In this document: in pieces, positions 912-58,400 of the stretch
Position numbering within the stretch: position 1 is the first letter of the stretch
Layout: the number at the start of each line of letters is the position of its first letter
Source: Prochlorococcus sp. AG-418-C09
Lineage (GTDB): Bacteria; Cyanobacteriota; Cyanobacteriia; PCC-6307; Cyanobiaceae
NCBI GenBank assembly: GCA_003214355.1
Contig: QCLS01000003.1
Coordinates: forward strand, 124,001-188,000
DNA length: 64,000 nucleotides
Direction of reading: 5' to 3'
Translations under genes and position numbers: made by a program
The notes under the pieces: model-generated
What the model saw: the letters and a program-made list of their open reading frames with translations, nothing else
What the model was told of the DNA's origin: nothing
The model's database searches: none

Positions 912-1625
912 TTACATGTTGATGAAATCTGATAGGAACTGTTTAGAGTTTCCAACGTTGTCGATCCATGCTTCTTTGTGGTCATCACTTAATTCCATAA
1001 ACTTAGTTACTACATATGCTGCTTCCTTAACAGTGATTTCTAGTTCACTATCATCATAGAAGAAGTATGTTGTAGGGTTGGTGTTAGTATCTTCGATCTG
1101 CTCTAGCATAAAGTTAAGAATGTTAGCACCATCATATGCTTCTGTCTTACCTTTATCCTTGTTAAGATTCTGTGCGATCTTCTTCTGTCTATCTTTTGCC
1201 TTACGTTGATAGTCAGCAGACTTAGCACGAGCGATTGTCTGGATCTCGTTCTTGCGGTTAGCGGCTCTCTTATCACGTTCTTGTTTCTTCTGCACCTTAC
1301 GACGCTGAGATAAGAACTTGTATGCTTGTTTAGTAGCAGCTCCAGATTCTGCTAGTTGTTCTTCGTTCATTTTCTTTTTGCGTTTAGCTAATCGTTTAAT
1401 AAGTTTACGAGCTTGCTTGCTCCTACCATCTATGTAGGTAGGATCTTTTCTCCTGTGATCCCACTGTTTACCCGCAGACTCTTGCTTCTTACGTTTCTTA
1501 GTGGCACGTTTGGAGAACTTCATGATCGGATCAAACCCTGCTATAGCACCTTGTCCTGTGACGGGGGTGTTAATAGGACCCACGTTGCCACCAAATGTTC
1601 CCATCTCAGCGAGTCCGTGGTTCAT
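912..1625 (-). CDS. Basic protein with a capsid-like N-terminal tag; putative internal head protein
   Basis: A 237-aa protein. Residues 16-33 (GPINTPVTG...GFDPIM) closely match residues 58-76 of the major capsid protein in this window (GPINTPTTG...GFDPIL). Just before it, GLAE at residues 4-7 resembles the L-x-E recognition site of T4-type prohead proteases; gp23 has LTE at 50-52 in the same relative place. Residues 36-160 are strongly Lys/Arg-rich and probably coiled, suggesting nucleic-acid contact; the C-terminal 75 residues are acidic. It lies in a run of head-associated genes and overlaps the next upstream gene by four bases. I infer a protein packaged in or attached to the capsid; its function is unknown. 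Confidence 0.7.
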   Translation of the reverse strand: MNHGLAEMGTFGGNVGPINTPVTGQGAIAGFDPIMKFSKRATKKRKKQESAGKQWDHRRKDPTYIDGRSKQARKLIKRLAKRKKKMNEEQLAESGAATKQAYKFLSQRRKVQKKQERDKRAANRKNEIQTIARAKSADYQRKAKDRQKKIAQNLNKDKGKTEAYDGANILNFMLEQIEDTNTNPTTYFFYDDSELEITVKEAAYVVTKFMELSDDHKEAWIDNVGNSKQFLSDFINM

Positions 1626-1996: not shown

Positions 1997-2611
1997 TTAG
2001 TTGCCGTATGTGAGTGTAGCAGCTCCGTTTGTGATTACTTCTGTAGCACCCTTAGATGTAGTTATCTTACATCTGTACTTGTAACCGTCGAGTGAATCAT
2101 CACCGTAGCTACTGTAACCAAGGGTTGCTGTAGTGAAGTTAGCGTATGTGATACCTGTGTCAAGGTTAGCAGTGATGTTAGTCCATCTGTTTCCAGTGGC
2201 TGTCTGTCTCTGCCATACGTATGCGGGAGTACCAGATTGGTCAACAGATACTGTAACAGCAAATGTTCCTGCTTCACTAGAAGAAGTGGAGTTAGCAGGT
2301 TGACCAGTAATAGTAATGGTCTCTAGTACGTCTGCTCCGATTGTATCGTCGGCTTGTGTCTCAGATGCGTTAGCTTCTGGTTTAGCAATGTAAACGAGTT
2401 GCTCTGCCTTATGGCGTGTCTTACCATGACTGTCGGTGTATGTAAAATACGACCACCAGCCAGGTGCGTTGAGTCCTCTGTCCTTATTGGACTTGAGTTG
2501 TGCTTCTGTATCGTCAATAAAGACAACAGTTTTTGCTTGTGATGAGGCACCAATACCTATACCAGCTTTGGTTTTATTAGCATTGCTGTCATCATTTCCA
2601 TAAAGTGACAT
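1997..2611 (-). CDS. Virion structural protein with C-terminal Ig-like domain
   Basis: A 204-aa protein. The first ~95 residues are a soluble domain (MSLYGNDD..., with GWWSYFTY near 52-59) of a type found in marine T4-like phages. Residues ~100-204 form an Ig-like fold with the signature I-x-G-Q-P, YVWQRQ, and a late Y-x-C (YKYRCK), the same repeat style as in the 2076-aa protein at 55478..61708. A good ribosome site (AAGGAG) precedes the ATG, and a late-promoter-like AATAAATA lies 38 bases upstream. It may be a surface decoration of the head, analogous in role to T4 Hoc, but that is inference. Confidence 0.7.
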   Translation of the reverse strand: MSLYGNDDSNANKTKAGIGIGASSQAKTVVFIDDTEAQLKSNKDRGLNAPGWWSYFTYTDSHGKTRHKAEQLVYIAKPEANASETQADDTIGADVLETITITGQPANSTSSSEAGTFAVTVSVDQSGTPAYVWQRQTATGNRWTNITANLDTGITYANFTTATLGYSSYGDDSLDGYKYRCKITTSKGATEVITNGAATLTYGN

Positions 2612-2853: not shown

Positions 2854-3555
2854 CTAATCTATATAGGGGTCTTCTAACACGAAGTCTGTGAGTTCTTCTA
2901 ACTGGTCAATGGAGTAATCAAATATGACCACGATACGATCCCTAGTGCCATTATGCTGAGCCCAATGCTTATCATTATCATAAAATCCGAAAACATTCCC
3001 TACCTCCCAAGTACGTTTGCGTCCTCTTACTGATAACCAAGCATCTGGATCTGTTACTACTGGGAAGTGTACCCGTAGAGAATCAATGTCACCGTTATGA
3101 GGATTTATCTTAGTACCTGGTGAAAGACGAGAGATTGTTGCGGACTTTAACAATTTCTTAAGGATATCCTCTTCTAAGTATGCTGCTGTCTTGGGGCAGC
3201 AACGTACGAAACTGTCATAGATCTTAGGACCTAACTCATTCATCTCTTCCAATGTAATATTAAAGAGCTTAGCAAACGATACCATCTCACTGAGTTGGTA
3301 GTCACCATCTATTGCTGTACACCCTACCTCATTGATAGGAAAGGGTATGACTCTCCAGTCACCATCCCATAGTTGTACTCGTCCTAGGTTCTTATCATCC
3401 ACCCACTTATCCATGATCCATTGATCCATCAAGTACTCATTGTCCTTGACGAATGCTAGTATCTCTGGAATTATTTCCTTATGTTTGTCTCTTAAATTAC
3501 GGTAGGAACTAAGGTTTTCTAATCTGTCCTCGTACCAAATTTTCCTCACTGCCAC
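2854..3555 (-). CDS. Aspartyl/asparaginyl beta-hydroxylase-like oxygenase
   Basis: A 233-aa protein starting with GTG at 3555. The C-terminal half carries the signature of the aspartyl/asparaginyl beta-hydroxylase family (Fe(II)/2OG-dependent): SRLSPGT then NPHNG (H153), R161-x-H163-FPV, W-x-x-G, FYDNDKH (H197), and HNGTRDRIV (R205/R207) before a short beta strand. The N-terminal ~130 residues are helical and family-specific. The family hydroxylates protein or peptide side chains in cellular organisms; the phage substrate is unknown. It overlaps the preceding 74-aa gene by 47 bases, so it may be translated by coupling. Confidence 0.8.
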   Translation of the reverse strand: MAVRKIWYEDRLENLSSYRNLRDKHKEIIPEILAFVKDNEYLMDQWIMDKWVDDKNLGRVQLWDGDWRVIPFPINEVGCTAIDGDYQLSEMVSFAKLFNITLEEMNELGPKIYDSFVRCCPKTAAYLEEDILKKLLKSATISRLSPGTKINPHNGDIDSLRVHFPVVTDPDAWLSVRGRKRTWEVGNVFGFYDNDKHWAQHNGTRDRIVVIFDYSIDQLEELTDFVLEDPYID

Positions 3556-3733
3556 ATCCCCATTGTATATTGTAAAGGCAACTGCCTATCAGCATGTCGT
3601 ACGCATTTATATATTTGTCTTGCTTATTCTCATCATACAACCAACACTGTAAACTTCCATAGTTTGCTCTTGGTACTTCTTGATCGAACCACCAATCGTA
3701 AGGTGTGTATTTGTCTGATGCTTTGTATGTCAT
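3509..3733 (-). CDS. Small protein, function unknown
   Basis: A 74-aa protein when started at the ATG at 3733, whose A is shared with the TAA stop of the upstream gene (TAATG). The upstream in-frame start at 3745 is less likely. It is rich in Trp, Tyr, Asp and Cys. It overlaps the start of the AspH-like gene by 47 bases in another frame. I considered that it might be a frameshifted N-terminus of that gene, but the oxygenase has its own full-length domain. No family recognised. Confidence 0.5.
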   Translation of the reverse strand: MTYKASDKYTPYDWWFDQEVPRANYGSLQCWLYDENKQDKYINAYDMLIGSCLYNIQWGCGSEENLVRGQIRKP

Positions 3734-7366: not shown

Positions 7367-8805
7367 TACATTGCTTTTAAATATGGTGCGGAATCTTTTG
7401 ATTGTGATGTAGCATACAACGCAATTAAATTTGCCACTTTATCTTGGTCACCTGTTGATAAGTCCATCATTCTATCTACAAATAATAGACCAAGATACTT
7501 TGAGAAAACCCACTGCCCTTTAGTCGTTGTTCTATTGTAATGATAGTCTATAGTTTCCTTTGTCATCTTTGGTGCTACAAACTTAGAAGACTTCTTAGGA
7601 TTCTTACTTCCATTAATAATATCCTCATGCTTCTTTGCTAATCTCAATAGACGATTGTTTAAACTACCGCTTTTAGCTGCTGATTTATACACATCAATAT
7701 TTCTATACAGTTCTTTACCAGTCACCTCTCCTAGGATACGACTGTAAACACCACCACCTATCTTACCATGCTTAGCTAAAGAACCTATCGCTTCACCCTG
7801 CCACTGTAATCCTTTACCTCCAGATGTATCACGGAACTGAACCTCTATTTTCATTTGACCCTGTGTATACATCCAAACATCTAATGAGTCAAATGACTTA
7901 GCATATATGTCTTTAAAAGTATCCTCTGGTCTTGAAGCACTATAGTTTACATGTTTAAGAGTAATCTTATCACTGGTTGTTTTCTTTAGAGATATACCAA
8001 ACAATATTTTCTTATCAATAAACTCTTTGAGTAGAGCATTGTAAGAAGCAAAGTTAGTTGCTTTTGTCAACTGATCCTGAGTTACACTACACTCACATGC
8101 CCAGATATCTGCGGGTGTCCACTTGTTTAAGTTAGAAAATGGAGCTGAATCATAACTGTCGTTGACTTTCTTAAACTGTTTATTAAGCATGTCAACAAAC
8201 TTACCACCCCTGTACCATTTGTATTTGTTCTTTGTTCCTTTACCAAACTCATTATACAATGCGTTAGCAGTAGCCATACATGAATCAACCCATGCAGGTT
8301 CTTCTTCTAGAAATGCTTTGATGTCATCTAATTTTTTATCTGTATCAACTATACTCTCAACACTTTTATATTCATCATCATTTGGAGCATACTTTAAGTC
8401 TTTACTCCTACTAAATCTAACAGCAGAAAACCATGCAGCAGCTGACTCTTGTAGTGCTGTTCCTGCTGCACCACCACCTGATCCCTTGTTAGATCCAAAC
8501 CTTGTTGTCTTTTCTAGATCAGAGAGTTTCATATCAACAGTCCCACTCTTCGTGATATATTTTAACTTACCATTACCTTTTATAGCAGCGTTTAATTTAT
8601 CATGTATCTTTTCATCCATAGTATCAGCAGCGTCTTTGAGTAGACCAATTATCTTTGGGTCTTTAACCTGTACAGCATACTTGCCACCTTTCATGAACTC
8701 TAGAGGAGTTCCTTTTTGTATGGCATCTAACAATACAGCAGCACGTGACGTTCCTACACCTGTTGGGTCATTGCTTCGTAGATCTTTTGGTGATAGTGCT
8801 CCCAT
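7366..8805 (-). CDS. PD-(D/E)XK nuclease-like protein
   Basis: A 479-aa protein. The central part has TPADIW (D233) followed about 40 residues later by FGISLKK (S272-L-K274), the typical spacing and sequence context of PD-(D/E)XK nucleases of the restriction-endonuclease fold. A Gly-rich GSNKGSGGG and ALQE (E120) precede. The C-terminal ~180 residues are basic and may bind nucleic acid. It is joined by start-stop overlaps both to the oxygenase upstream and to the ligase-like gene downstream. It could alternatively be an inactive structural protein with this fold; E replaced by S in the ExK triplet occurs in some active members. Confidence 0.5.
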   Translation of the reverse strand: MGALSPKDLRSNDPTGVGTSRAAVLLDAIQKGTPLEFMKGGKYAVQVKDPKIIGLLKDAADTMDEKIHDKLNAAIKGNGKLKYITKSGTVDMKLSDLEKTTRFGSNKGSGGGAAGTALQESAAAWFSAVRFSRSKDLKYAPNDDEYKSVESIVDTDKKLDDIKAFLEEEPAWVDSCMATANALYNEFGKGTKNKYKWYRGGKFVDMLNKQFKKVNDSYDSAPFSNLNKWTPADIWACECSVTQDQLTKATNFASYNALLKEFIDKKILFGISLKKTTSDKITLKHVNYSASRPEDTFKDIYAKSFDSLDVWMYTQGQMKIEVQFRDTSGGKGLQWQGEAIGSLAKHGKIGGGVYSRILGEVTGKELYRNIDVYKSAAKSGSLNNRLLRLAKKHEDIINGSKNPKKSSKFVAPKMTKETIDYHYNRTTTKGQWVFSKYLGLLFVDRMMDLSTGDQDKVANLIALYATSQSKDSAPYLKAM

Positions 8806-9398
8806 TAGAATTGTTTCCAGTACTTCGGATGTGTGAGTCCTCCTTCTTTATTTAGATCTGTGTTAGTGAGTAACACGTCTCCTGCTAGACTCCAACGGTG
8901 TCCAGTATTATATGTCATGTGTCTCAAGTTGGCAGGGAATATTAGTAGGTCACCCTCCTGTGTGTTCTCCTCCCAGACAGATGTGTTAAGAAAATTCTTC
9001 TCTGCGTCAGCAAATGCCTGTGGGAACCACTCGTTCTGACTATCCTTAGTAAAGCATAGTGGGTCTTGTGTGTCCAAGTAATACACCCATGATATATGAG
9101 CAGGGTCATGACAATGATTAGGAACTGAACAGTCCTCACCACTGATAGCATACCATGTCTTCATGAAATGAATATTATATTCTACGTTCATAGATGCTAG
9201 GTACTGATCTATACAGTCATTGATCTCTAGCATAAAACTATTAAGTTGTGGGTCAAGATGTACTAACACCTTACCATTTAACTCTCCTGTTAGACCTTCA
9301 TTGAACATGTGATGTTCATACCTCTTGGCAACCCAATCAGTATAGTCTATTAAATTAAATTTACCTACAGTTGTAGGAAATAGATTAATCTTTTCCAT
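8805..9398 (-). CDS. 2OG-Fe(II) oxygenase-like protein
   Basis: A 197-aa protein of the short marine-phage oxygenase type: FPTTVGKF at the N-terminus, NHCHD (H95, H97) followed by SWVYYLD, then GDLLIFPANLRH (H160) and HRWSLAGDVLL (R168). This is the H-x-H/D ... H ... R layout seen in putative 2OG-Fe(II) oxygenases (PF13759 type). The substrate is unknown. It shares TAATG overlaps with both neighbours. Confidence 0.8.
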   Translation of the reverse strand: MEKINLFPTTVGKFNLIDYTDWVAKRYEHHMFNEGLTGELNGKVLVHLDPQLNSFMLEINDCIDQYLASMNVEYNIHFMKTWYAISGEDCSVPNHCHDPAHISWVYYLDTQDPLCFTKDSQNEWFPQAFADAEKNFLNTSVWEENTQEGDLLIFPANLRHMTYNTGHRWSLAGDVLLTNTDLNKEGGLTHPKYWKQF

Positions 9399-10726: not shown

Positions 10727-12106
10727 TTAAAACTTAAAGTCATTGAACTTACCCTTAGATTGAGTAAGTGCCTTGACTGTATCTTGGTTCAGAACAACTT
10801 GACCTGAGTCCATGATGTTATTCTGTGCCTCTTGTTCAACATTATACAGTCTCATCTTCGCTCTGTCAATACCTACAACAAAACGTTTGTTAAGTGTGGG
10901 ATCATAGTATCTATTCTTCAACTGTTTGACCATTATCTGATTCTGTTCCTCCAATTCCTCCGTAGATATAAGAGCAAACATAAGATCAGCAGTTGCGGGA
11001 AGCCCAAAACTTTCGCTTGTATCAGTAAGATCAACATCACTACTCCCATAGCCAGAACGAGTCGTCTGAGTAGCGGAGACGAGTGGTACATTAAACTCAA
11101 CTGCAAGACCACGGAGCTCTTCCGCAATCGACTTAACCATGGTATATGAATTGACCGACGCATTTCTAAACCTCTGCGATGTACAGATATTTAGATAGTC
11201 TATGAATATTATCTCTGGTCTGAATGCTTTCTTTAATGCCAGATCATTTAAGAGTGCTCGGAAGTGACCCGCATGTGCTGACGCAGTGGGGTACTCTTTT
11301 ACTATGAGTTTACCTTGTGTCTTCTTAGATAAGTCTGTGATCTTATTCTCAAACATTATCTTAGGTAACTGTGCCAGTGTTTGTATGTCTACGTTGAGGA
11401 GGTTTGCGTCAATTCGTTCAGCAATTTTCTCTTCTGCCATCTCCATTGTAATATAGAGTACGTTCCTCCCTTGGAGCAACACGGAGCTAGCGACGTGGCA
11501 CATGAATAGAGATTTCCCGACACCTGTACCAGCCAACGCGATGTTAAGAGTCTTATTAGGTAGACCACCTTTTGTAATTTTGTTAAAGAAGTCAAGGTCA
11601 AAGGGTACTTTGGTTTCAACTCTGTGATAACTTTCGTATCTTTCTTCGTAGTCATCTATGTAATCGTGTCCTATATGATTATCAAACGACACACCAAGAG
11701 CGTCCGATAGTATACTTGGTATAGCATCGGCACTCTTCTTATCATCAGAACCATCTGCTATCTTGATTGATTCCATCAACGCAAGATAAATCGCACGGTC
11801 TTGGCACCACTTCTCAGTAGTATCCAACAACCAATCTAGTTCTGTTTTCTCTTTATCAAACGACTCTAAAGTCTGGTGTATCTGCTTGAACTGATCATCA
11901 CTAAGTGTAGATATCTTACCTACTTCAATGGTAAGGGCTTCAACTGTTGGAACAGCAGAATACTTTACGAAGTATTTATGAATTACATCGAATAGATGTT
12001 GATCTGTTCTGTCCTCAAAATATTCTTGTTTGACAAACGGAAGTACTCTCCGAGGATAATCCTCAGTTAACAGTAAGTTCTTCAGTATCAGTGTCTCCAC
12101 CTTCAT
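10727..12106 (-). CDS. 41: Replicative DNA helicase gp41
   Basis: A DnaB-type hexameric helicase that unwinds DNA at the fork. Walker A AGTGVGKS lies near residues 192-199 (counting from the ATG at 12106), followed by the RecA core with IIFIDYLN and SATQTTRSG-like segments. The N-terminal ~150 residues are helical as in DnaB. Two starts are possible, 12121 and 12106, both inside the end of the upstream oxygenase gene. At 459 aa it is close to T4 gp41 (475 aa). Confidence 0.92.
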   Translation of the reverse strand: MKVETLILKNLLLTEDYPRRVLPFVKQEYFEDRTDQHLFDVIHKYFVKYSAVPTVEALTIEVGKISTLSDDQFKQIHQTLESFDKEKTELDWLLDTTEKWCQDRAIYLALMESIKIADGSDDKKSADAIPSILSDALGVSFDNHIGHDYIDDYEERYESYHRVETKVPFDLDFFNKITKGGLPNKTLNIALAGTGVGKSLFMCHVASSVLLQGRNVLYITMEMAEEKIAERIDANLLNVDIQTLAQLPKIMFENKITDLSKKTQGKLIVKEYPTASAHAGHFRALLNDLALKKAFRPEIIFIDYLNICTSQRFRNASVNSYTMVKSIAEELRGLAVEFNVPLVSATQTTRSGYGSSDVDLTDTSESFGLPATADLMFALISTEELEEQNQIMVKQLKNRYYDPTLNKRFVVGIDRAKMRLYNVEQEAQNNIMDSGQVVLNQDTVKALTQSKGKFNDFKF

Positions 12107-12671
12107 AGACTTCCTCTTCAATAAAAAAATTAAATGATATAGTAGACCTCATCTTGGAGGACTTGTTCATGGGAGCAGCATGCTCTAACCATGATGGGAA
12201 GATAATCATATCACCCTCTTGTACCCAAGGGGTAATGACATTCGCCTTGCTATTAATCATACCACTTGTCGCAAGTAATGTCTCTAATGGATGATGAAAG
12301 TTTGTTGCCTTATGCTCATTCGGATCGAAGTGAACATAGTATACACCAGACCATTGACCTGGTGAGTGGATATGTTTCTCTTGCCAGTGCTTAGTCTCAT
12401 AGACATTCATCCATAAGTCTGTCAAAATCATATTACCATAACATTGTGCTTCTGTCTGGAACTCATCTAGTGTGGGTGTGAATGCGTCTAAACATTCTCC
12501 AATAGGAAACTTGCCTGACCCATAGGATGTAAACAGGTCACAGTTCCACTGGTCAGGTACATCAGTTTTAAATTTATTATCTTTATAATATTCTTCTACT
12601 CTTGCTTTGATAGCATCGTTATCATCTATGTGATACCTGTAGAGGAGTGTGGGGAATGCTTCTACTTTCAT
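12063..12671 (-). CDS. 2OG-Fe(II) oxygenase-like protein
   Basis: A 202-aa protein with FPTLLYRY at the start, [17 protein letters not shown] (H100, H102), [13 protein letters not shown] (H164) and MRSTISFNF (R175), matching the short PF13759-type 2OG-Fe(II) oxygenases. It is wedged between uvsX (4-base ATGA overlap) and gp41 (overlap of about 44 bases), so it is made with the replication proteins. Confidence 0.82.
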
Positions 12672-21290: not shown

Positions 21291-21787
21291 AACCAATTCG
21301 GTTTACGGGATGGGTCACGAAGATAATTAGATGCAACCCAAGGTTTGCTGCCAATGTAATTCTTGTAAGCAGTAAAAGTGTCAATGCTTGTGTCATATTT
21401 AAACCGTTCGGGCATTGCTCTGGTATAGCTCGTAGGGATATCATTGTTGTTAGGGAATATTATATTAGCATGAAGCATAGTATGTTGACAACTATGTACC
21501 TTGTTGTATCTATGTGTGTACTCAGCACACAAGGCAAGACCATGCTTGATCAACCAACGGAAGTTAGTCTGTGCCCAGATAGTACATGGGTGGTTACGGA
21601 ACGCACCCTTCTCTGTCTTGTATGGTTCACCATTGAGTTTAGGTAAGTCACCGAAACCATGACCCCACTTGCTAGACGCTACGATAGATAACATCTGACA
21701 TGTTTCTAGTGGCATCTTGACAATATGTTTGTCAGGTAATACCTGAGCAGACTTGATAGGGTCAGGGTCGGTAACAAATATATTCAT
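21287..21787 (-). CDS. Pyrimidine-dimer glycosylase-like protein
   Basis: A 166-aa protein. The opening MNIFVTDPDPIKSAQVLPDKHIVKMPLE belongs to a phage family often annotated as pyrimidine dimer DNA glycosylase (endonuclease V type), with conserved His, Lys and Trp residues in the first 100 residues. The resemblance to T4 DenV itself is low, so the DNA-repair role is uncertain. It is coupled by ATGA overlaps to gp62 and to the oxygenase upstream. Confidence 0.55.
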   Translation of the reverse strand: MNIFVTDPDPIKSAQVLPDKHIVKMPLETCQMLSIVASSKWGHGFGDLPKLNGEPYKTEKGAFRNHPCTIWAQTNFRWLIKHGLALCAEYTHRYNKVHSCQHTMLHANIIFPNNNDIPTSYTRAMPERFKYDTSIDTFTAYKNYIGSKPWVASNYLRDPSRKPNWL

Positions 21788-22407
21788 AGTATAGGAGGAT
21801 TCTTAGCGTATGCTTTATAGTCAGGAGTAATGTTCATAGTCAGAGTCAATCTCCTGTCGTTAGTATCATTATAACCTGTTTTGTGGCGAAGCCAAGAGGG
21901 GAAGAACACAACGTCACCTTCTGAAACACTGATCCTTCTCCAAGGATGATTGCCACTGATAGGTTCTGCTGCTCTTACTGCTGTCATGGGATCATAGATC
22001 CATAAGTCACCAGAGTTCTCTGGTTTGAGGATGTATGCTGTACATGTGAGACCCACACCATGATGATGCTCGTCAGTATAGTCCCATTGATAATGTTCAT
22101 TATACCATGAGTTAGATATGTAGTGTGGGTATCCTTCATACCTCCATGCTGTACGTAGATACTGCATCTTCTGTCTTAACCATACCACATACTTAGAGTT
22201 CACTTCCAAGTTATGTGGAAAGTGATTGCTAGGTTCTAGTATATTAAACAGGTCAGCAGTAGACTTACCACCTTCTTCTAGTGCTGATTCAATATCATAC
22301 TTGTCAACCATGTCAAACAATTCATCAGCAGTTTTGATCTGTTCTGATGTATTAAACTTGAAGGTGTCTTTGTATACAACAGGTGCTGAGATGTTGATAG
22401 GTTTCAT
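21784..22407 (-). CDS. 2OG-Fe(II) oxygenase-like protein
   Basis: A 207-aa protein. DEHHHGVGLTCTAYIL (H114-H116), GDVVFFPSWLRHKTG (H175) and DRRLTLTMNI (R185/R186) fit the short 2OG-Fe(II) oxygenase pattern. An N-terminal extension of about 60 residues sets it apart from the others. It lies between two small replication-operon genes with four-base overlaps on each side. Confidence 0.8.
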   Translation of the reverse strand: MKPINISAPVVYKDTFKFNTSEQIKTADELFDMVDKYDIESALEEGGKSTADLFNILEPSNHFPHNLEVNSKYVVWLRQKMQYLRTAWRYEGYPHYISNSWYNEHYQWDYTDEHHHGVGLTCTAYILKPENSGDLWIYDPMTAVRAAEPISGNHPWRRISVSEGDVVFFPSWLRHKTGYNDTNDRRLTLTMNITPDYKAYAKNPPIL

Positions 22408-23955: not shown

Positions 23956-24881
23956 TCTACCATGATCTCCGTGAGTGCTGCTAGTAGATTGATCTCTTGA
24001 TCAGCAACAAATGCTATCTGATACTGATACTTTGCGATGACCAATACAGCAGAGGGTATACTACTTGGTTCTAATTTCTCATACAGTGAGTCATATAGAT
24101 TACGTAGTATAATATTAGGATCGTTGTCAAGATTATCAACAACCCATTTCCTAACACTACCATAATCTTTTCTTGATAGAAAGTCAACTAACTGATCAAT
24201 GTTAGTATCAATCATGGCAGCAAGGATACCTGTGTCAATGTTTCCAGAGGTAGAATATCTCTGTAGTTCATTGAGTACACGTCTCCAATCAGGGAAGTAT
24301 CTCTGAATCAATTCTGCTATAACTTTCTTCTCATATGCTATCCCTTCTTCTTCTAATATAGTATTCAACCTACCAAAGAATGATGCCATGATCTGTTGCT
24401 TTTCATTCTTCTGAATCTGAAAATCTATACAACTACATCTTGAGTGTATAGGTTCTATTATCTTATTCTTGAAGTTACAAGTGAATATGAACGAACAAGT
24501 CTTATGAAATTCCTCAATGAATCCACGGAGGAGAAGTTGTACGTCGTGAGTGGTATTGTCTGCCTCATCAATAATAATGACCTTGCGTGAGGATCCACCC
24601 AAGAGGGAAACAGTTGATGCAAAGTTTTTCGCTTGACTCCTGACGGTATCAAGGAACCTGCCTTCGTCAGATCCGTTAATAACATAACTGTCTACTCCTA
24701 ATTGTTTACATAAAGCTTTTGCTACGGTAGTCTTACCGATCCCTGCTGTTCCAGACAGCAATAGATTAGGTACCTGACCCTGATCTACTATCTGTTGGAA
24801 GGTATCCTTAATACGTGAGGGTAGGATACAATCTTCAATCTTCTGTGGACGATATTTCTCGACCCAAAGAAATTCACTCAT
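23940..24881 (-). CDS. 44: Clamp loader large subunit gp44
   Basis: A 313-aa AAA+ ATPase that opens and loads the gp45 clamp. Walker A SGTAGIGKT (43-51), Walker B IIIDEADN (101-108), sensor 1 IFTCNF, and the SRC motif (146-148) are all present. Length matches T4 gp44 (319 aa). The ATG overlaps the upstream oxygenase stop (ATGA). Confidence 0.95.
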   Translation of the reverse strand: MSEFLWVEKYRPQKIEDCILPSRIKDTFQQIVDQGQVPNLLLSGTAGIGKTTVAKALCKQLGVDSYVINGSDEGRFLDTVRSQAKNFASTVSLLGGSSRKVIIIDEADNTTHDVQLLLRGFIEEFHKTCSFIFTCNFKNKIIEPIHSRCSCIDFQIQKNEKQQIMASFFGRLNTILEEEGIAYEKKVIAELIQRYFPDWRRVLNELQRYSTSGNIDTGILAAMIDTNIDQLVDFLSRKDYGSVRKWVVDNLDNDPNIILRNLYDSLYEKLEPSSIPSAVLVIAKYQYQIAFVADQEINLLAALTEIMVECQFK

Positions 24882-25453
24882 GATAAAACCGTGTTAATTA
24901 AGATCCGAGTTTGATGCTCGGAGGGGGAGTATCCTGTATGGAGATAGTTCCCATCAAATAGTACCATACGTCCTGCCTTGGGAGCAACCCTCTCCTTAAT
25001 AGGGAGGTTGTTTGTCTCAAGATATGTTTCTGCCCACTTAGTTTTGTGGTCATAGATTACTGTGTCTCCATCACTGTCATTAACATATACTATACACGCT
25101 ACGTGCGGTTGATCTATGTCAATGTGAGGAGGATGTAAGTATCTATCGTGTAGAACTGTCATGTCTAGTCTACACCTCAGAATGTGATCTGCCTTTGCTA
25201 TATCTTTGATACGATATATCAGAGGTTGTATCAGTGTTGCTATAGGAGTCTCTTCAAACTTATCTGGTTGCCATGGTGGTACTAAACCAATAGAAAAACC
25301 GAAGTCTTCTATCAAAGCATTGTCATATTCAGAAAGAGATTGCGACCCTTGAAAGTACCATGGGGTACTAGCAGGATCACACGCACTCTGTATAGCTTCT
25401 AGGTATGATGGCGATACGAAATCATCGTAGATCGCTAGATCAATTTTCCTCAT
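24878..25453 (-). CDS. 2OG-Fe(II) oxygenase-like protein (prolyl-hydroxylase type)
   Basis: A 191-aa protein. PPHIDIDQPHVACIVYVN (H110, D112), GRMVLFDGNYLHTG (H172) and QTRILINTVL (R183) match the prolyl-4-hydroxylase-like layout of Fe(II)/2OG enzymes. It lies between gp45 and gp44, with a 14-base overlap with gp45 and a four-base overlap with gp44, so it interrupts what is otherwise a clamp/clamp-loader pair. Confidence 0.83.
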   Translation of the reverse strand: MRKIDLAIYDDFVSPSYLEAIQSACDPASTPWYFQGSQSLSEYDNALIEDFGFSIGLVPPWQPDKFEETPIATLIQPLIYRIKDIAKADHILRCRLDMTVLHDRYLHPPHIDIDQPHVACIVYVNDSDGDTVIYDHKTKWAETYLETNNLPIKERVAPKAGRMVLFDGNYLHTGYSPSEHQTRILINTVLS

Positions 25454-27674: not shown

Positions 27675-28298
27675 TTATTTTATTGTCACATCTGACCCAC
27701 CATAGTGACCAAACTTGCCACGTATGAAAACATCAAAAGCTACTGCGTATCTGACTTGATCTGTCTTATTCTTTTCTACGTTATGTATAACCTGACTAGG
27801 GAAAACTAAGATCATACCGTTCTCAGGTCTGACTCTCCAACTCTGCTGTGTATATTGATTGAAGAAATTTACATCGGGTGTGAGTGTGGTCATGAAACAA
27901 TTAGTTGAGTGTTGACCCTTCTCTATCACTAGGTCACCACTATTCTCACTCACATCTAGGTAGTATATACCTGAGAATACACTGTTCATATGACAATGAT
28001 TTTGTGCCCAGTCGTTAGGCATATGTTTGATACCCCATGCCCTACACACATCAATATAAACGTAGTCAGATACCTTTAGATGCCCATAGGCAAAGTACTT
28101 TACAGCATCAGATATCTCATGCTTAAGTGAACGTAACTCTGGGTGTGAAAATATATCTCTATCTCTACTAATATATCCATTGTCCATCGCTGTGCGATCA
28201 TAATTTAATGTCTTTACATATTCCAACCACCCCTCCTTCAGAGGTATTTCACTCTGGAAGACAGGGGTGGGGAACAGACTATGTACCTGTGGTTTCAT
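27675..28298 (-). CDS. 2OG-Fe(II) oxygenase-like protein
   Basis: A 207-aa protein with SLFPTPVFQSE at the start, NHCHMNSVFSGIYYLD (H101, H103), GMILVFPSQVIHNV (H172) and VRYAVAFDVF (R183), a textbook member of the PF13759-type phage oxygenases. It is inserted between the CobT-like and CobS-like genes with an ATGA overlap with the former. Confidence 0.85.
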   Translation of the reverse strand: MKPQVHSLFPTPVFQSEIPLKEGWLEYVKTLNYDRTAMDNGYISRDRDIFSHPELRSLKHEISDAVKYFAYGHLKVSDYVYIDVCRAWGIKHMPNDWAQNHCHMNSVFSGIYYLDVSENSGDLVIEKGQHSTNCFMTTLTPDVNFFNQYTQQSWRVRPENGMILVFPSQVIHNVEKNKTDQVRYAVAFDVFIRGKFGHYGGSDVTIK

Positions 28299-37631: not shown

Positions 37632-38999
37632 TTACATAAGGTTAGCAACTCTAACTCTTCTGTAGTAAGCGTTAGCACCAATGTTTGTGCTGTGCTGTGG
37701 ATCAGAGTTTGAAAGTGCTGTAAGTCCCTTAGCGAATGGGTTAAGAACCATTCCGTAACGAGTTTTAAACCCGATACGTGGCTGGAATGTATCCTGACCA
37801 ATCGCTCTGTACATTTGTAGCGGAACGTATGGGCAGTAGAATAATCCTGCGTCGTATGCGTTAGTACCTTTGTATCCAACAACGTAGTATTGGTCAGCAG
37901 ATACGTTTGCTGAGTAAGGGTCGATGTACACTTTGAATCTTCCGTTGATTGTACCAACGAATGTGTTTCCTGTGTCATCAATCTCGCCAAGTCCACCAAC
38001 TGCTTGGTTGATACCTGAAGAGTAGTCTAGAACACCCGCCATAGCAAGAGCAGAAGCAACATCACTAGAAGTGATGATTACGTTACCCTTTCCTCTACGA
38101 GTCTCTAGTGCGATTGCGTTAGCATCTCTTTCGATCTGGAATAGTAGACCTTTGAATTTCTCAACAGACCATCTTCCATTTGAGTCAACGTCTAAGTCAA
38201 ATACACCTGCATTTGCTGTGTTAACCTGAGCACCAGGCTTAGCACCTCTGTATACAGTACGTACAACTTCTCTGTTGATTTCAGCAAGGATCTCAGTAGA
38301 AAGAATGTTTGCTAGTTCAGACTCGGCATCTAATCCGTGGATTGCTTTCAAGTCTTGAGCAAGTTCAACTGAGTAGTCTGCTCTTAATGCTCTACCTTTA
38401 GCTTCAACAGCAATTCTGTCGATGCTAAACGCCATTTCCATGAACGCTGTAGAAGTTCCTTCTCCAAGAGATTCCATCTCAGATGTGCCGAACTTAGAAG
38501 AAGCAAGGTCATAGTTACCTTCTGTTGTACCACCACCAGAAGCATCGTTGATCAAACCTGGGTTTTTCTCAGTTGTTGCTGTTGGAGGAGTAGCTCCGTC
38601 GGTACCAGAGAACTGTGCGTCTGGCTCATCGAAGAATGCTTCGTTACCTGACTGGTTAACGTAGCGTGATCTCATTGCGAAGATTAATCCAGTAGGACCA
38701 TTCATAGGCTGAACACCTGCGATGTCATAAGCAATAAGCTTAGGCATAGCACGACGAATCAAGCTAATAAGAATTGGGTCGAAACCGAAGTTAGCACCCG
38801 CACCTGTGGTAGGGGTGTTGATAGGACCTGCGTTAGTAGGTGCCTCTGTAAGGATTTGCTTTTCCTCACGCATGAACCTTTCTTGGTTCTCTAGGAGTTG
38901 TGCGGTAACCGCTTTACGATAGTTATCCTTTATCTCAGGAAGACCATCATGCTTTAGTACGGGATTCCACTTCTCCTGTAGTTTTTCTGTATTGAACAT
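37632..38999 (-). CDS. 23: Major capsid protein gp23
   Basis: A 455-aa HK97-fold capsid protein. The first ~52 residues are a removable N-terminal arm ending in ILTE (49-52), a good prohead-protease site (L-x-E before A). GPINTPTTG...GFDPILISLIRRAMPKLIAYDIAGVQPM follows (from ~58). The C-terminal half is typical gp23 (RIGFKTRYGMVLNPF). It is shorter than T4 gp23 (521 aa). No late-promoter motif is visible in the 27-base gap after gp22, so it may be read through from gp22. Confidence 0.96.
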   Translation of the reverse strand: MFNTEKLQEKWNPVLKHDGLPEIKDNYRKAVTAQLLENQERFMREEKQILTEAPTNAGPINTPTTGAGANFGFDPILISLIRRAMPKLIAYDIAGVQPMNGPTGLIFAMRSRYVNQSGNEAFFDEPDAQFSGTDGATPPTATTEKNPGLINDASGGGTTEGNYDLASSKFGTSEMESLGEGTSTAFMEMAFSIDRIAVEAKGRALRADYSVELAQDLKAIHGLDAESELANILSTEILAEINREVVRTVYRGAKPGAQVNTANAGVFDLDVDSNGRWSVEKFKGLLFQIERDANAIALETRRGKGNVIITSSDVASALAMAGVLDYSSGINQAVGGLGEIDDTGNTFVGTINGRFKVYIDPYSANVSADQYYVVGYKGTNAYDAGLFYCPYVPLQMYRAIGQDTFQPRIGFKTRYGMVLNPFAKGLTALSNSDPQHSTNIGANAYYRRVRVANLM

Positions 39000-39026: not shown

Positions 39027-40121
39027 TTAGATCCTTTTAGCTAGTTGCTCGACATATGCTGCCATGCTTTCACTAACAGTTTCAAGTGTTTTTTCTGCTT
39101 CTGGAGCAGATTCTTCTGAAGCAACCTCAGTCACGGTCTCTGCCTTTGGAGCACCAAAGTATGATTCCTTAATTTGACCTAGCTTCTCACGATACGACTC
39201 ATCAGATTTGAATTCGACTGCATCGGCAAGGGATTTGAACTTGTCCTTCTGTGTCTCAGCGAGACCTCTGGTTAGTTCTGTCAAAATCTCATTTTTACGA
39301 TAGGTACCCACTACCTCGTGTAGTTCGACATTCTTCTTAACCTGTTCGTTAAGTCGGTCTTCCATGTCATCTATTTTCTCGCTCATCTCAGCAGCAAGAT
39401 CCAGTTTATCATCTGGAACATTGATGTTTGATTCGATGAACAATTTCCTTAATCCTTCCATGAACGTCTCAGTGACTTCAGTGCGGAGACCTTGCTCTAC
39501 TGCAAGTTCGTTCTCCTTGAGCCACTCATCTGCAGCGTACTGGAGGAAATTCTCTACGCGGCCAGCAAACTCGTCTTTCATTGATTCGATTTCTTCAACG
39601 AATTTTGCTGCTGCTTGCTCCTTAAGGGAGTCAATCTTTGCTGCGACTCTTGCGTCTACAGCTGCTTCAAAGACAGTCTTTGCTTTTGCTGTGAAGTCTT
39701 CATCTAAATCAGCACCCTTAAGTACTGCATCGATGTCTTCACTGCTGTCTTCAGTTACCACATCTCCTTCGACTTCCACGTCGTCAAAGATTTTAGCTGA
39801 TAAAGCACCAGGCATTGATGATGATGCACCAGATGGTTTCATCTTCAAGGTCTTGTCTTTTTCTACTCCTACAGGAGCAGCTGCTTTTTTACCAACGTTG
39901 TCAGGACCTTCAGGTTTTTCCTTAGAAGAACCACCTACCTCAATGGCATCGTTCTTTAAGTCTGACTTTTGTTGTGGAACAGCACCACCAGTTATGGCAG
40001 TGTTACCTGTTGCTGCGTCTTCAGAAACTTCGGTTTTTGGTTCAGATGCTTCCTCAGCTACAGCTTCAGTTGCTTTCTTTTCCGCGATGAGTTTCTCAAA
40101 TTTTTCATCTATTGTGGACAT
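39027..40121 (-). CDS. 22: Prohead core scaffold gp22
   Basis: A 364-aa very acidic, Ala/Glu/Lys-rich, largely coiled-coil protein. Position between the protease and capsid genes and composition identify it as the main core scaffold, which is degraded by gp21. The first ~130 residues form a disordered extension that makes it longer than T4 gp22 (269 aa). Ribosome site TAGGAG; a perfect TATAAATA lies 43 bases upstream. Confidence 0.9.
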   Translation of the reverse strand: MSTIDEKFEKLIAEKKATEAVAEEASEPKTEVSEDAATGNTAITGGAVPQQKSDLKNDAIEVGGSSKEKPEGPDNVGKKAAAPVGVEKDKTLKMKPSGASSSMPGALSAKIFDDVEVEGDVVTEDSSEDIDAVLKGADLDEDFTAKAKTVFEAAVDARVAAKIDSLKEQAAAKFVEEIESMKDEFAGRVENFLQYAADEWLKENELAVEQGLRTEVTETFMEGLRKLFIESNINVPDDKLDLAAEMSEKIDDMEDRLNEQVKKNVELHEVVGTYRKNEILTELTRGLAETQKDKFKSLADAVEFKSDESYREKLGQIKESYFGAPKAETVTEVASEESAPEAEKTLETVSESMAAYVEQLAKRI

Positions 40122-40173: not shown

Positions 40174-40821
40174 TTATATACTTCTTAGGAAACTCGCGAA
40201 CGCGGAGATTTTCCTTTCTTGAAGTTCTTGTGGTGTAGGTGCGTTGTCAATAGCAGCCTTGATCTCTTCGATCTGTTGCTCTTTGAACTTGCCATCTACA
40301 GTGACCCACTCACGTCCTTCGTATATACCTTCTACGAATGCATCAGGTGCTGAAGGATCTGCTACGATGTCCGCAGCAGTGGAAAGAATAAAGTCATCTG
40401 CTACCACAGAACAACTACCTTCCTTCTTGATTGAACCGAGACCTCTTGATGATACTCCCAGTTGTACACCTTCTTCGAGTAAAGACTTTGCAATCTTACC
40501 CATTGGTGTTTCCATAAGTTTCGCCTTACCTATGAAGTTAGTACCTTCTGGATAAAGTTCAACGATTTTATGTGACACTCTATCTAGGTTAAGTGTCGGA
40601 CCCTCTGGATGACCTAACTCACCAAGAGCTCTACCTCTGTTAACGAACTCCTCATTATACTTTGACACCTCTCTATTCATGGTATCGAATTTGTACATCC
40701 GACCATTGCGATTGGTTATCTCAGTCTGTAGGAATACACCTTTGATATAGGTTGATTTCTTACCGTCTTTTTCTTCGGTAAGAACTTCTATATCATTGTT
40801 CTGTTCCGTTATCAGTTTCAT
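40174..40821 (-). CDS. 21: Prohead protease gp21
   Basis: A 215-aa serine protease of the T4 prohead type. LGELGHPEGP contains the catalytic His (H71) and GVSSRGLG the Ser (S124 or S125). It matures capsid and core proteins at L/I-x-E sites. T4 gp21 is 212 aa. It overlaps the core protein gene by 29 bases. Confidence 0.93.
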   Translation of the reverse strand: MKLITEQNNDIEVLTEEKDGKKSTYIKGVFLQTEITNRNGRMYKFDTMNREVSKYNEEFVNRGRALGELGHPEGPTLNLDRVSHKIVELYPEGTNFIGKAKLMETPMGKIAKSLLEEGVQLGVSSRGLGSIKKEGSCSVVADDFILSTAADIVADPSAPDAFVEGIYEGREWVTVDGKFKEQQIEEIKAAIDNAPTPQELQERKISAFASFLRSI

Positions 40822-54669: not shown

Positions 54670-55478
54670 TATCCGATCATATCCATTGGGGGCATTTCAT
54701 ACTTAGTCAACATCTCATCTTCTATCTTGTTTAACTCTTCTTGTGCCTGTTGATATATCTGATCACCATTCATAGTGATACCACCTGGCAACTGTGCTCC
54801 TTGGAACTTAGATAAGTTCTGTCCCCACTGTCTCTTGATGAGCTGTGTGGTATATCTCTTGAGGAAGATGTCATCATATAGTGTAGTAAATGATGAAGGA
54901 TCTAATGCTCTGTAAGCATCAAAGACTATAAAGTCTCCATCGTTTACATCAGTTCTGAAGTCTAGATCCATGTATAATCTATCTCCTCTGCTCTGGAATC
55001 TTATTTGCTTCTGTCCTTCTAGTAACCAGTATATATCTTCTAGTCTTCTGTTTACCATTTCATATGTAAGAATCTCAGTCTGAGTTAGATCCCAGAGATC
55101 ATTCAATCTCCACTGGTATCTGACATCAAATAGGTTAGTAGTATTCTTAGATGTGAAATCAAATATCTTAATGACTGAGGTGACATGCTCAGGCATAGTA
55201 ATAAAGTTATTCTGCTCAAGGAAGTTTGCTTGTCTAGCACCCACCTGTGTCACTGTGGTAGTGGTGTCAGTGGTCATGGCATCTATTGTTGCCTGATCAA
55301 ACTGATACTTCAAGAACGTTCTTATATAACCGTCAGTAGATCTCTCTTGGAAAAACTGCAAAGCATCATCAATCAGATCATCTATCTGATCATCATCTAC
55401 GTTTATTTCTAGGACTGGTGCTCCTAGTTTTCTTAAGGCATACTCTGCTAGAGTGTCCTTACTACTTGGTTTTGCCAT
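54669..55478 (-). CDS. 13: Neck protein gp13
   Basis: A 269-aa protein. TLAEYALRKLGAPVLEINVDDDQIDDLIDDALQFFQERSTDGY (region ~9-51) and LIKRQWGQNLSKFQGAQLPGGITMNGDQIYQQAQEE (~203-239) are diagnostic for gp13, which joins head and tail with gp14. T4 gp13 is 309 aa. Confidence 0.93.
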   Translation of the reverse strand: MAKPSSKDTLAEYALRKLGAPVLEINVDDDQIDDLIDDALQFFQERSTDGYIRTFLKYQFDQATIDAMTTDTTTTVTQVGARQANFLEQNNFITMPEHVTSVIKIFDFTSKNTTNLFDVRYQWRLNDLWDLTQTEILTYEMVNRRLEDIYWLLEGQKQIRFQSRGDRLYMDLDFRTDVNDGDFIVFDAYRALDPSSFTTLYDDIFLKRYTTQLIKRQWGQNLSKFQGAQLPGGITMNGDQIYQQAQEELNKIEDEMLTKYEMPPMDMIG

Positions 55479-58400
55479 TAGACTGTATCGACGTTGAATC
55501 TCGCTCTTACATAATATGTAGTTGTAGGTAACAGTGTAACGTCACCTGGTAATGTATATGACAGTAGGTTGGTAGAGTTTCCTAACGATTGGTGTACAAT
55601 AGTAGTGAATGTATCTGCCTGTGAGAACTGCCAGTCAGTAGAGTTATGTCCATAACCAGTCTTAAATTCTGGTGTTAGAACATTGATAGTAGGATTAAAT
55701 GCGGGAGTAATAGTTTGTATATTTGGTTGATCTACAACAGGAGTAGAGAACTGTACAGCAGTCGAGTAATTACTTGATAGTCCTGCGTTATCTTTATACT
55801 TAACCTGAACTGAATAAGTTGTTTGGAAGTCAAGTGTACCAGCTGGTACTGTGAATGTAGTCAAATTACCAGTATCACCCTGTGATAAATCAGGAACTGT
55901 GATAGCAGCAGTATCATATATTACTGCGTTATCAGATGTTCTCTTAATTAACCACCAAGATGCTGAATGAGTTGACCCTGCGTACTGTGATACAAATGCG
56001 TCTGATGTAAATGTAGGTTGTCTATTGAATGTCAAGTTAGTTGTTGGGTCTATATTGACAACAATACCAGTAGCTGCTTCTACAAATTCAGACTCATTTA
56101 CAGTAATAGTAGCGGACTGAGATGTAACTGATATCGCATTGCTGTTAGACAATACACAACGATACTCATTGTTGAGTGTTGGGAAAGGTTGTGTGACTGT
56201 AGTATATGAAGCAGCTGTAGCACCATTTATATTTGCCCAGTTAGCACCACTATCAGTTGACTTCTGCCACTGGTAGTTGATTGATCCAGATGTGATAGCA
56301 GCAGTGATACTAAATGTTGCTGTCTGTCCTTCAATGATTGTTTGTGCCTGTGGTTGCTGAGATATACTAATAACTCTAAGAACTGTCTGTACCGCAAAGG
56401 TTGATACTAGATCATTTTGAGCACCTACTAGACTGAGTGTACACTTAAATCTGTCATCATTATCATCAGCAAATACTAAAGCAGGAGTGGTATAGGTAGC
56501 TCCTACAGCACCTGGTATAGTATTATAGTCTACGCCATTGTCAGATTTACTCCACTGATAAGTATGTGAACCACTAGATGTATTACCCGCTACAGTATAT
56601 GATGATGTTCCTCCTTCATTACCTGTTGCGTTGACTGGTTGAAGGGTTATGTTATGAGTCCTGTAGACAGTTAACAATGCGGCTGAGGTGAACTCATCAG
56701 CATCAGCACCGATAGCCGAAAGCTTACAACGGAACCTATCATGATGATGATCTGCGTATGTCAATGTGCCTGTGTTGTAAGTAGGACTTGTTGCTCCACC
56801 TATATCAGTATATTGATCAGTCACAGTCATCGCTGCTCCTTGACCTGTATGGAAATGACACCAGTAATATAGAGGTGATGACTGAGAACCAGGTACTGTC
56901 CACTCCACTCTTCTATCACTAGCAGCTACGAATCCACTGACATACCCTGCCATATTTACAGTGACACCATCTAACTTATAAACTACTCCCATCATATAAT
57001 GTCCGTTACCATTATGATCTCCGTCAGCACCTGTACTGAACATCAATGGATGATGAACTGAACCATAGGTAGCATTAGTAGAATCATTCTGGATAAAAGT
57101 ATATGTAGCATTCTGCTCAAATTCTAGAACTGCCTTCTCCACTCCATCAAAATAGAATACACCAGTTGATTGTCCTGCGTTCGTATCTACACCTACTGTG
57201 ACTGTAATAGTCGCATCACCATCAGATTTCTGCCACTGATACTGGACTGAAGGTGCGTGGTTAGACCAGATAGAGTTGTATAGTTCTGGATCAGCAGCTG
57301 TCTCTGCCTTAGCAGAAGCACCACCACCTGAAGGTGTTGTCCAGTTACCAACTCCAAAGGAAGAGTTCAATAACGCAGTGATTGCTTGAGTCTGTACTGT
57401 ACCAACTGCTGTGAATGAAGCAGTCTGTCCCTCATCCCTAGTTGCGTCACTTGGATTAGCAACTACAGATACAGTAACTGTTTCTACCTGTAAGGTAGCA
57501 GCATTAGAGAATGTATTAACAGCACCAGCCGCGGATATTAAACATCTATATTGATATTCATCGAACTGAGCCGTAAGGGTAGGTGTAGTATATGTGCTAG
57601 TATTTGCTCCTGAAATACTTGAGAAGTTATTACCATCATCTAGTGACAACTGCCACTGATAGTTAATGTCAGCACTGTCACCATCAGAAAGACTAGCAGT
57701 AACTGCGAAGTCTGCTGTTCCACCAACTGCTCCTGTGTCATTCTGTGGATGTGCGTCGACTGATATAGTTCTTGTAACTGTTAACTGAGCACTATTTGAT
57801 ACTACCTCACTAGCACCTGTAGCGTTGACTCTACATCTAAAGTAGTCTCCGCTGTCAGCAGCAAAGGAAGCTGGAGGTGTACCACCACTATCATATGTGG
57901 TTGCTGTAGTAGTATATGCTGCACTCGTAGCACCTGGTATTTGATGCCATACAGAGTCATCCTCTGACTTATCCCATGCATATGAAATTGATGCTGAGTC
58001 AGCAGTAGAAGCAGTTATATTGAATGTAGCAGCAGCTGGTGATACTACAGATGTACTAGATGGTTGTGCCTGTATACTCACTACTCTAGTTACAGTCAGT
58101 GTAGCAGCATTTGACGTTGTACTAGAAGCTGCTGTATTAGAATCTAATACGCATCGGTATTGCCATCCGTTAAATGAGTAGTCATCATCTACAGTAAGTG
58201 TATCTGTTGTCTCTCCACTATGTCCTGCTTGACCACTAATACTTGTCCAAGCACCACCTGTACTGTACTGCCACTGGTATGTGATAGTAGATGAGTCTGA
58301 TACAGTAGCGTTTAAAGGACCAAACTGTGCGTTGGTTCCTGCTCCCGCTTCTATTGATGCATCGGAAGGTTGATCTCCAATCGTAACAATAACACCAGTA

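Follow-up and report, generated by a model that had tools for sequence, protein, structure and literature searches.

The DNA analyzed here (the window, 64,000 nucleotides of a contig in the Prochlorococcus sp. AG-418-C09 assembly) contains, on the minus strand at 912–1625, an open reading frame (ORF) initiated with an ATG codon that encodes a 237-amino-acid protein (P0001). P0001 matches the PHROG 4187 profile over most of its length (E = 1.2e-47; residues 14–236 on profile positions 8–231 of 237). Upstream on the same strand lies a gene for a DUF7207 protein (1622–1993; PF23837 and PHROG 407 by profile matches), the usual upstream neighbor of genes of this kind, and its stop codon and the ATG of P0001 share a 4-nt overlap (ATGA) both in the window and in many relatives; the DUF7207 protein may serve P0001 as a chaperone or partner. 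The product of the next gene (1997–2611, minus strand) gave no match in a Pfam search, and by synteny and N-terminal similarity judged by eye it corresponds to the P-HM1 T4-GC537 "virion structural protein" and the Syn9 gp188 "head protein". The minus strand also encodes the major capsid protein gp23 (37632–38999; PF07068, E = 1.4e-141), the scaffold protein gp22 (39027–40121; PHROG 237, E = 1.7e-87), and the prohead protease gp21 (40174–40821; PHROG 207, E = 2.6e-76).

The contig is that of a T4-like cyanomyovirus within a 1.6 Mb assembly rated 95% complete, and it was probably carried along with the host as an infection. An IMG/VR contig of 189,106 bases encodes a protein identical to P0001. 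Elsewhere in the window, 2OG-Fe(II) oxygenase-type matches (PF13759, PF05118) above the Pfam cut-offs were found at 2854–3555, 8805–9398, 12063–12671, 21784–22407, and 27675–28298, and a sixth ORF of this type at 24878–25453 fell just below the cut-off; this number may be high for one window. The ORF at 55478–61708 encodes a 2076-amino-acid protein in which a subtilase-like stretch (DTG, HGT, GTSFSGP) followed by Ig-like repeats was recognized by eye, and its only Pfam match, of the plastocyanin type, was below the cut-off.

P0001 can be divided into four parts (all minus strand). Residues 1–7 (MNHGLAE; 1605–1625) form a leader ending in an LxE site of the prohead-protease type, and residues 14–34 (NVGPINTPVTGQGAIAGFDPI; 1524–1586) form a tag, identified by arm search and alignment and kept in homologs, that resembles the N-terminal arm of gp23. 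The tag is followed by a Lys/Arg-rich body (residues 38–160; 1146–1514), with a long helix predicted at residues 70–157 by a low-confidence AlphaFold2 (AF2) model, and by an acidic C-terminal module (residues 161–237; 912–1145). The net charge is +33 over residues 35–160, where Lys and Arg make up 37%, and −12 over residues 161–237. In ACG-2014d and S-RIM14, the proteins encoded at the same position have a C-terminal part that resembles this acidic module (hhalign probability 85.8, E = 5.4e-6, 47 columns). A Pfam search of P0001 gave no match, whereas gp23 matches PF07068, and the AF2 model is mainly helical and weak (mean pLDDT 56.8). An HK97-like or gp23 fold was not found by Pfam or in this low-confidence model, and the N-terminal stretch is all that the two proteins have in common. 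The first-pass annotation had described a basic helical region with an acidic tail and no capsid fold, a description that these data bear out. Matches of the body to S-PM2 at E = 0.3 were set aside as an effect of composition.

The alignment of P0001 with gp23 of the same window is ungapped: residues 14–35 (NVGPINTPVTGQGAIAGFDPIM) and gp23 residues 56–77 (NAGPINTPTTGAGANFGFDPIL) are identical at 16 of 22 positions. The likeness reported by the first-pass annotation is thus real, and its pairing of residues 16–33 with 58–76 needs correction to 16–34. The BLOSUM62 local score between the P0001 N-terminus and gp23 was 87. Shuffling the first 45 residues of P0001 20,000 times gave a mean of 21.0 (sd 4.4, maximum 51), and among the other six-frame ORFs of at least 30 amino acids in the window the highest score was 35. 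When the gp23 arm was searched against the whole assembly (1.6 Mb, 32 contigs) at E ≤ 10, two places were returned, gp23 itself (E = 3.3e-18) and ORF 912–1625 (E = 2.0e-6). An L-x-E site just upstream of the motif is present in both proteins, as the earlier annotation had it: I-L-T-E followed by A53 in gp23 and G-L-A-E followed by M8 in P0001.

Alignment with T4 gp23 placed the shared stretch within the first 25 residues of mature gp23. Residues 53–77 of the window gp23 (38769–38843, minus strand), which start after ILTE, are the counterpart of T4 residues 66–91, the N-fist (PMC7136217), so that by alignment the stretch copied in P0001 is the gp23 N-fist, a more exact identity for what had been noted as a capsid-arm likeness. 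In T4, this element touches four subunits, two in its own and two in the adjacent capsomer; the N-terminal region of gp23 is disordered in the prohead and passes from the interior to the outer surface upon expansion, and disorder is also seen in N-fists that face the portal (PMC9958956, PMC7136217).

The same two-place pattern was seen in several other phages. The window gp23 matched gp23 and the gene behind DUF7207 (hereafter the slot gene), and nothing else, in the records of P-HM1, P-HM2, and MED4-213. A Syn9-type arm was searched against 12 whole phage records; it found gp23 in all 12, the slot gene as well in four of them, and no further match. In Syn9 itself, gp23 reads QTTGYTGGDTVTGPVAGFDPV and the slot protein MTTGYTGGDAATGPTAGYDPV.

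The closest family, PHROG 4187, includes the proteins of P-HM1, P-HM2, MED4-213, and viral contigs. We read the 18 closest loci (the window, L001–L003, L005–L012, L181–L184, L186, and L190, some with identical N-termini; L004 is identical to the window, and L181–L184, L186, and L190 come from the best 80 of 538 DUF7207-anchored loci). The motif was kept in all 18, a result that could have gone against its being a family feature. An L/I-x-E site was found in eight (GLAE, NIAE, GIAE, GITE), and in the other 10, including P-HM1, P-HM2, and MED4-213, the start codon adjoins the tag (MMGSAGITNVGPINTP and similar) and the site is absent. Judged from these sequences, the motif is a feature of the family and the GLAE-type protease site is not, and cleavage is not needed for the design, since 10 of 18 loci lack the site. 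Within the subclade of the window, [LI]xE followed by M withstands changes of residue among the four forms.

A site common to all members was thus rejected; the site is a property of members with a leader. Among 71 unique N-termini from the best 80 of 538 anchored loci (L203, L228, and L243, which offered no tag anchor by pattern, and six duplicate N-termini were left out), 45 have at least 10 residues ahead of the tag, and 38 of these 45 long leaders contain a [LIM]xE site whose Glu is at most 10 residues away from the tag. In 1000 shuffles of the long leaders the mean was 13.7 (sd 2.9, maximum 23), a contrast in which independence is overstated, as the N-termini are related to one another. 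The site was found in 1 of the 26 short leaders. Leaders such as MKTFKEFMNE and MKSFNAFIDE resemble T4 capsid-targeting sequences. In the Syn9 gp190-type proteins (best 80 of 313), [LI]xE was found within the first 10 residues in none of the 80, and 37 of the 80 begin with M[KN]EEM, which places a Glu just ahead of the tag. The proposal of prohead protease cleavage is partly supported, by the sites in long leaders and in the window's own subclade; the 10 of the 18 closest loci that lack the site would not need it.

In the named phages examined, the tagged gene lies directly after the DUF7207 gene (PHROG 407) and shortly ahead of T4-GC201, gp61, and nrdA or their counterparts; the window conforms, with 912–1625 directly after 1622–1993. 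P-SSM2 has one gene between DUF7207 and the slot gene, and contigs L101 and L228 have a different gene directly after DUF7207. In Syn9, P-SSM4, and S-P4, the slot is occupied by a different protein, PHROG 696, which is labeled "major head protein" in RefSeq; its body differs from that of PHROG 4187 and yet it begins with a version of the gp23 arm. We infer that the label stems from this tag. The Syn9-type family occurs in 283 phage records and at least 313 viral-contig stretches; among the best 80 of the 313, 75 proteins fit the tag pattern (one of them, L164, read from mid-tag only), and the other five, compared by eye, differ by one residue at the end of the pattern.

Among the best 80 of the 538 anchored loci, the gene after DUF7207 carries a tag in 79, the exception being L228. 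By ad hoc patterns (78 loci; L190 was assigned by eye and moved to type 1/4), 37 tags are gp23-like, 35 are of type 2 (APTNNVGGGKIAGTxEAGDDPPV and similar), and seven are of type 3 (PPTNSIGPNQGAEVSLPPA and similar). The median net charge of these anchored proteins is +14.5 with gp23-like tags, +7 with type 2, and +8 with type 3. Type 2 proteins are often short (median 70 amino acids) and made up of a leader, the tag, and a basic tail; PHROG 3286, the mini type of S-SM2, shows weak matches to other slot proteins in their tag region (E = 0.007 to 0.017). In five contigs with a type 2 or 3 tag that also contain gp23, inspection by eye found little beyond PT[NM] common to the tag and the phage's own gp23, and the kinship of type 2 and 3 tags with the N-fist is, from these sequences, less certain. 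These data show that the gene usually found right after DUF7207 encodes an N-fist-like or looser tag on variable, mostly basic bodies.

Structure searches gave little beyond the slot proteins themselves. No credible match was obtained in PDB sequence searches with slot proteins. The AF2 model of the Syn9-type protein is of moderate quality (mean pLDDT 69.4), with a long helix in the basic body; a fold search of this model against a viral library returned three entries at E ≤ 0.001, namely the ACG-2014d and S-H38 slot proteins and one unnamed entry at 52% identity, and a search against the PDB returned none at that threshold. The tag had no confident structure in the P0001 and Syn9-type models.

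The relation of each tag to the gp23 of its own phage was then considered. At residues identical between tag and own arm in 20 genomes, the same codon was used in 139 of 337 cases, compared with 162.4 expected from codon usage. The codons at identical residues are unrelated, which indicates that the likeness is kept at the protein level, and gene conversion or recent duplication is disfavored. Label permutations favored own tag/gp23 pairs (p = 5e-5 for 20 genomes, p = 4e-4 for 16; P-SSM2 and S-SM2 excluded), although the own arm ranked first in only seven of the 20 genomes. Co-evolution with the own gp23 looked promising from the permutations, but the signal disappeared once the gp23 core was held constant in a partial Mantel test (r = 0.135, p = 0.13, n = 20; without the Eurybiavirus group r = −0.03, p = 0.56, n = 17; also without S-CREM2 r = −0.05, p = 0.63, n = 16). 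The set for this test omitted P-SSM2, S-SM2, S-H38, MED4-213, and P-SSM3 and added S-CREM2, L142, and L206. Shared ancestry suffices to account for the matching, and matching beyond ancestry is not supported. Single own-pair cases do exist: P-HM2 has GPINTQ, S-RIM14 VGTGGF, and S-CREM2 GFTGAAAP in both proteins, and ACG-2014d pairs APTM with SPTM. Six of 16 Kyanoviridae combine an AGTGGF-type tag with a TTGYT-type gp23.

For type 2 and 3 tags compared with the own gp23, S-SM2 and S-H38 scored above all 3000 shuffles; for P-SSM2, 26 of the 3000 did as well, a weak likeness, and for HTVC008M, where 1022 of 3000 did as well, there was none. The S-SM2 tag did not find gp23 when searched against its own whole record. 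In Sinorhizobium phage phiN3, gp354 (L023:3369–3794), which follows DUF7207, ends in YIVEVEGSAVPSTNTGNI and a Lys-rich tail. Its PSTNTGNI near the C-terminus, compared with PTTNTGNI within the gp23 arm (APTTNTGNI), scored above all 3000 shuffles, and this likeness was not found by a whole-record search at E ≤ 10. The sequence of gp354, with an IxE site before the stretch, is possibly a C-terminal version of the tag. The likenesses of this group to the own gp23 are best regarded as leads.

Evidence from virions was available for relatives in the slot. S-CREM2 gp160 is encoded directly after DUF7207 (gp159; PHROG 407) and ahead of a primase gene, and it was detected in purified virions with seven unique peptides and 13.1% coverage (PMC10665884 Table 3). 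Its tag GFTGAAAPEGPVAGYDPLM corresponds to GFTGAAAPGGPNAGFDPVM of its own gp23; in context, gp160 reads ..DIKEEMMAAGATGFTGAAAPEGPVAGYDPLM and gp23 reads LLTEAPTQAVGADGFTGAAAPGGPNAGFDPVM. One tagged slot protein is thus shown to be in virions, and the virion location that the first-pass annotation implied for P0001 is supported to the extent of this one protein. In the rows of that virion table between gp156 and gp160, gp159 is absent (PMC10665884 Table 3). The body of gp160 (L269:4843–5736) matches PHROG 727 (profile positions 23–198); the window protein encoded at 3733–4368 matches another part of the same profile (252–430) and also Pfam DUF6321.

In the P-SSM4 record, the note "similar to Synechococcus phage S-SM1 protein" stands on gp3, gp13–15, gp18–21, gp23, and other structural or unassigned genes, and it is absent from gp16, gp17, gp22, gp55, gp46, gp47, uvsW, and uvsY. 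The P-SSM4 slot gene (T4-GC426) bears the note, as do the slot genes of P-SSM7 and S-SSM5. The structural genes gp8 and gp9 of P-SSM4 lack it, which makes it an imperfect marker. Together with the S-SM1 proteome (PMC3037559), the note leads us to infer that the slot protein was detected in S-SM1 virions. The P-HM1 and P-HM2 records label the P0001-family protein hypothetical and carry no such note. Among all 30 proteins in the S-SZBM1 virion table (PMC9146016), none stands at the inferred number of the slot gene.

On balance, we consider it somewhat more likely than not that P0001 is a head protein that uses mimicry of the N-fist to dock into the gp23 lattice, with a basic body facing the DNA. 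The leader, where present, would act like a T4 capsid-targeting sequence and be removed by gp21 after [LIM]xE, leaving the fist near a free N-terminus, as in mature gp23 (gp23*). In leaderless members, translation would start at that point and yield the same end, with the N-fist at or near the free N-terminus. The fist would then enter the lattice pocket normally taken by a gp23 N-fist and tie the protein to the shell. The simplest sites would be unoccupied pockets beside the portal or at the vertices; a missing capsomer should leave such pockets vacant, chiefly around the portal, because T4 fists that face it are disordered. The basic body would stay inside and contact the packaged DNA, as the lysines of T4 internal proteins do (PMC3012670). 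In T4, the N-fist finishes on the outside of the shell once the head has expanded, and docking does not by itself place the body inside.

More tentatively, in gp24-less T4-like marine phages the N-fist could be a portable anchor for interchangeable cargo bodies encoded at one DUF7207 locus, with or without a protease-removed leader, that locks cargoes into free N-fist pockets in the shell or at the portal vertex as the head expands; this wider scheme we regard as possible rather than probable. The gp24 protein was absent from all cyanomyoviruses then known, which have only two of the five T4 shell proteins, with the exception of Hoc in P-SSM2 (PMC2984593). With gp24 absent and few T4 shell proteins present, it would be no surprise to find an accessory shell protein in these phages.

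The best placed of the alternatives, though an unlikely one, is that gp23 and the slot protein share the tag as a signal recognized by the assembly core or by gp21 (for prohead targeting or as an exosite), with no docking role in the mature shell. In leader-bearing members, as in gp23, the tag does directly follow the predicted cut, and the Glu ahead of the tag in the 37 of 80 gp190-type proteins (best 80 of 313) that start with M[KN]EEM would allow a looser cut. Against a recognition role, leaderless members hold the tag without the site (10 of the 18 closest loci), [LI]xE was found near the start of none of the same 80 gp190-type proteins, and the tag remains in the protein after the predicted cut. 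We know of no fist in other T4 gp21 substrates, which likewise counts against a recognition signal.

The slot protein might instead be non-structural, an assembly modulator that binds gp23 or nascent proheads, for example as a competitor or as a chaperone with an arm decoy. A free N-fist could compete with that of gp23, the S-CREM2 product (gp159) of the DUF7207 gene to which the slot gene is coupled is missing from the virion-table rows mentioned above, and the S-SZBM1 slot protein, by its inferred number, is not among the 30 virion proteins; the presence of S-CREM2 gp160 in virions with seven unique peptides (PMC10665884) and the S-SM1 note on T4-GC426 oppose this view, which we regard as improbable. 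Smaller still is the likelihood that the 5′ end of gp23 was once duplicated and joined to another gene and that the similarity is merely its functionless remnant: tag and arm vary between lineages roughly as ancestry predicts, but residues have been kept while codons were randomized, and such tags stand on several different bodies. A chance or convergent Gly/Thr/Pro-rich linker is very hard to credit, since, low as the complexity of the tag is and loosely as type 2 and 3 tags resemble gp23, the score of 87 lies above every composition-preserving shuffle (at most 51) and the arm finds only two places in the assembly at E ≤ 10.

If docking by the N-fist is correct, a second device for sorting head proteins would stand beside the T4 capsid-targeting sequence, working by mimicry of the shell protein's own clamp. 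PHROGs 4187 and 696, and perhaps 3286, would gain a testable function, gp24-less cyanomyoviruses a candidate shell accessory, and the naming of a non-capsid protein as "major head protein" in public records a reason; if docking is real, the tag could also offer a natural means of anchoring cargo in these capsids. The first-pass annotation knew of no description of such an arrangement, and we found none of a gp23 N-fist-like tag on slot proteins in open-access papers. That statement is tempered by PHROG 696 and RefSeq, which already label Syn9-type proteins "major head protein", suggesting that automatic annotation has caught the likeness to gp23.

Several known systems can be compared with P0001. 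The T4 gp23* N-fist (residues 66–91) and N-arm are the same region by alignment and lie at the N-terminus exposed by the gp21 cut, whereas the fist of P0001 is fused to a basic non-capsid body that would dock through it. We know of no T4 internal protein with a gp23-like N-fist after the cut. The T4 proteins IPI, IPII, IPIII, and Alt, which carry capsid-targeting sequences (PMC9026906), are basic head proteins like the slot family, and slot-family leaders such as MKSFNAFIDE and MKTFKEFMNE end in [IM]xE and look like those sequences; in contrast, the leader of P0001 has only seven residues and P-HM1-type members have none. DarA and Hdf of phage P1 are capsid-bound, DNA-facing accessory head proteins, as proposed here for the slot protein, and DarA is processed by the prohead protease with a cut near that of the major capsid protein; the description of both in that source is without a copy of the capsid-protein arm, which sets them apart from P0001 (PMC12810830). 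PHROG 696 (Syn9 gp190, T4-GC426) shares the slot, the kind of tag, and a basic body with a long helix, but belongs to a different body family from PHROG 4187, with similarity confined to the C-terminal module in some members. Finally, Pfam and PDB sequence searches gave no sequence match between the P0001 family and solved gp24 or other shell proteins; by its proposed action, P0001 would fill the shell-stabilizing accessory role that T4 gp24 and other accessory shell proteins play.
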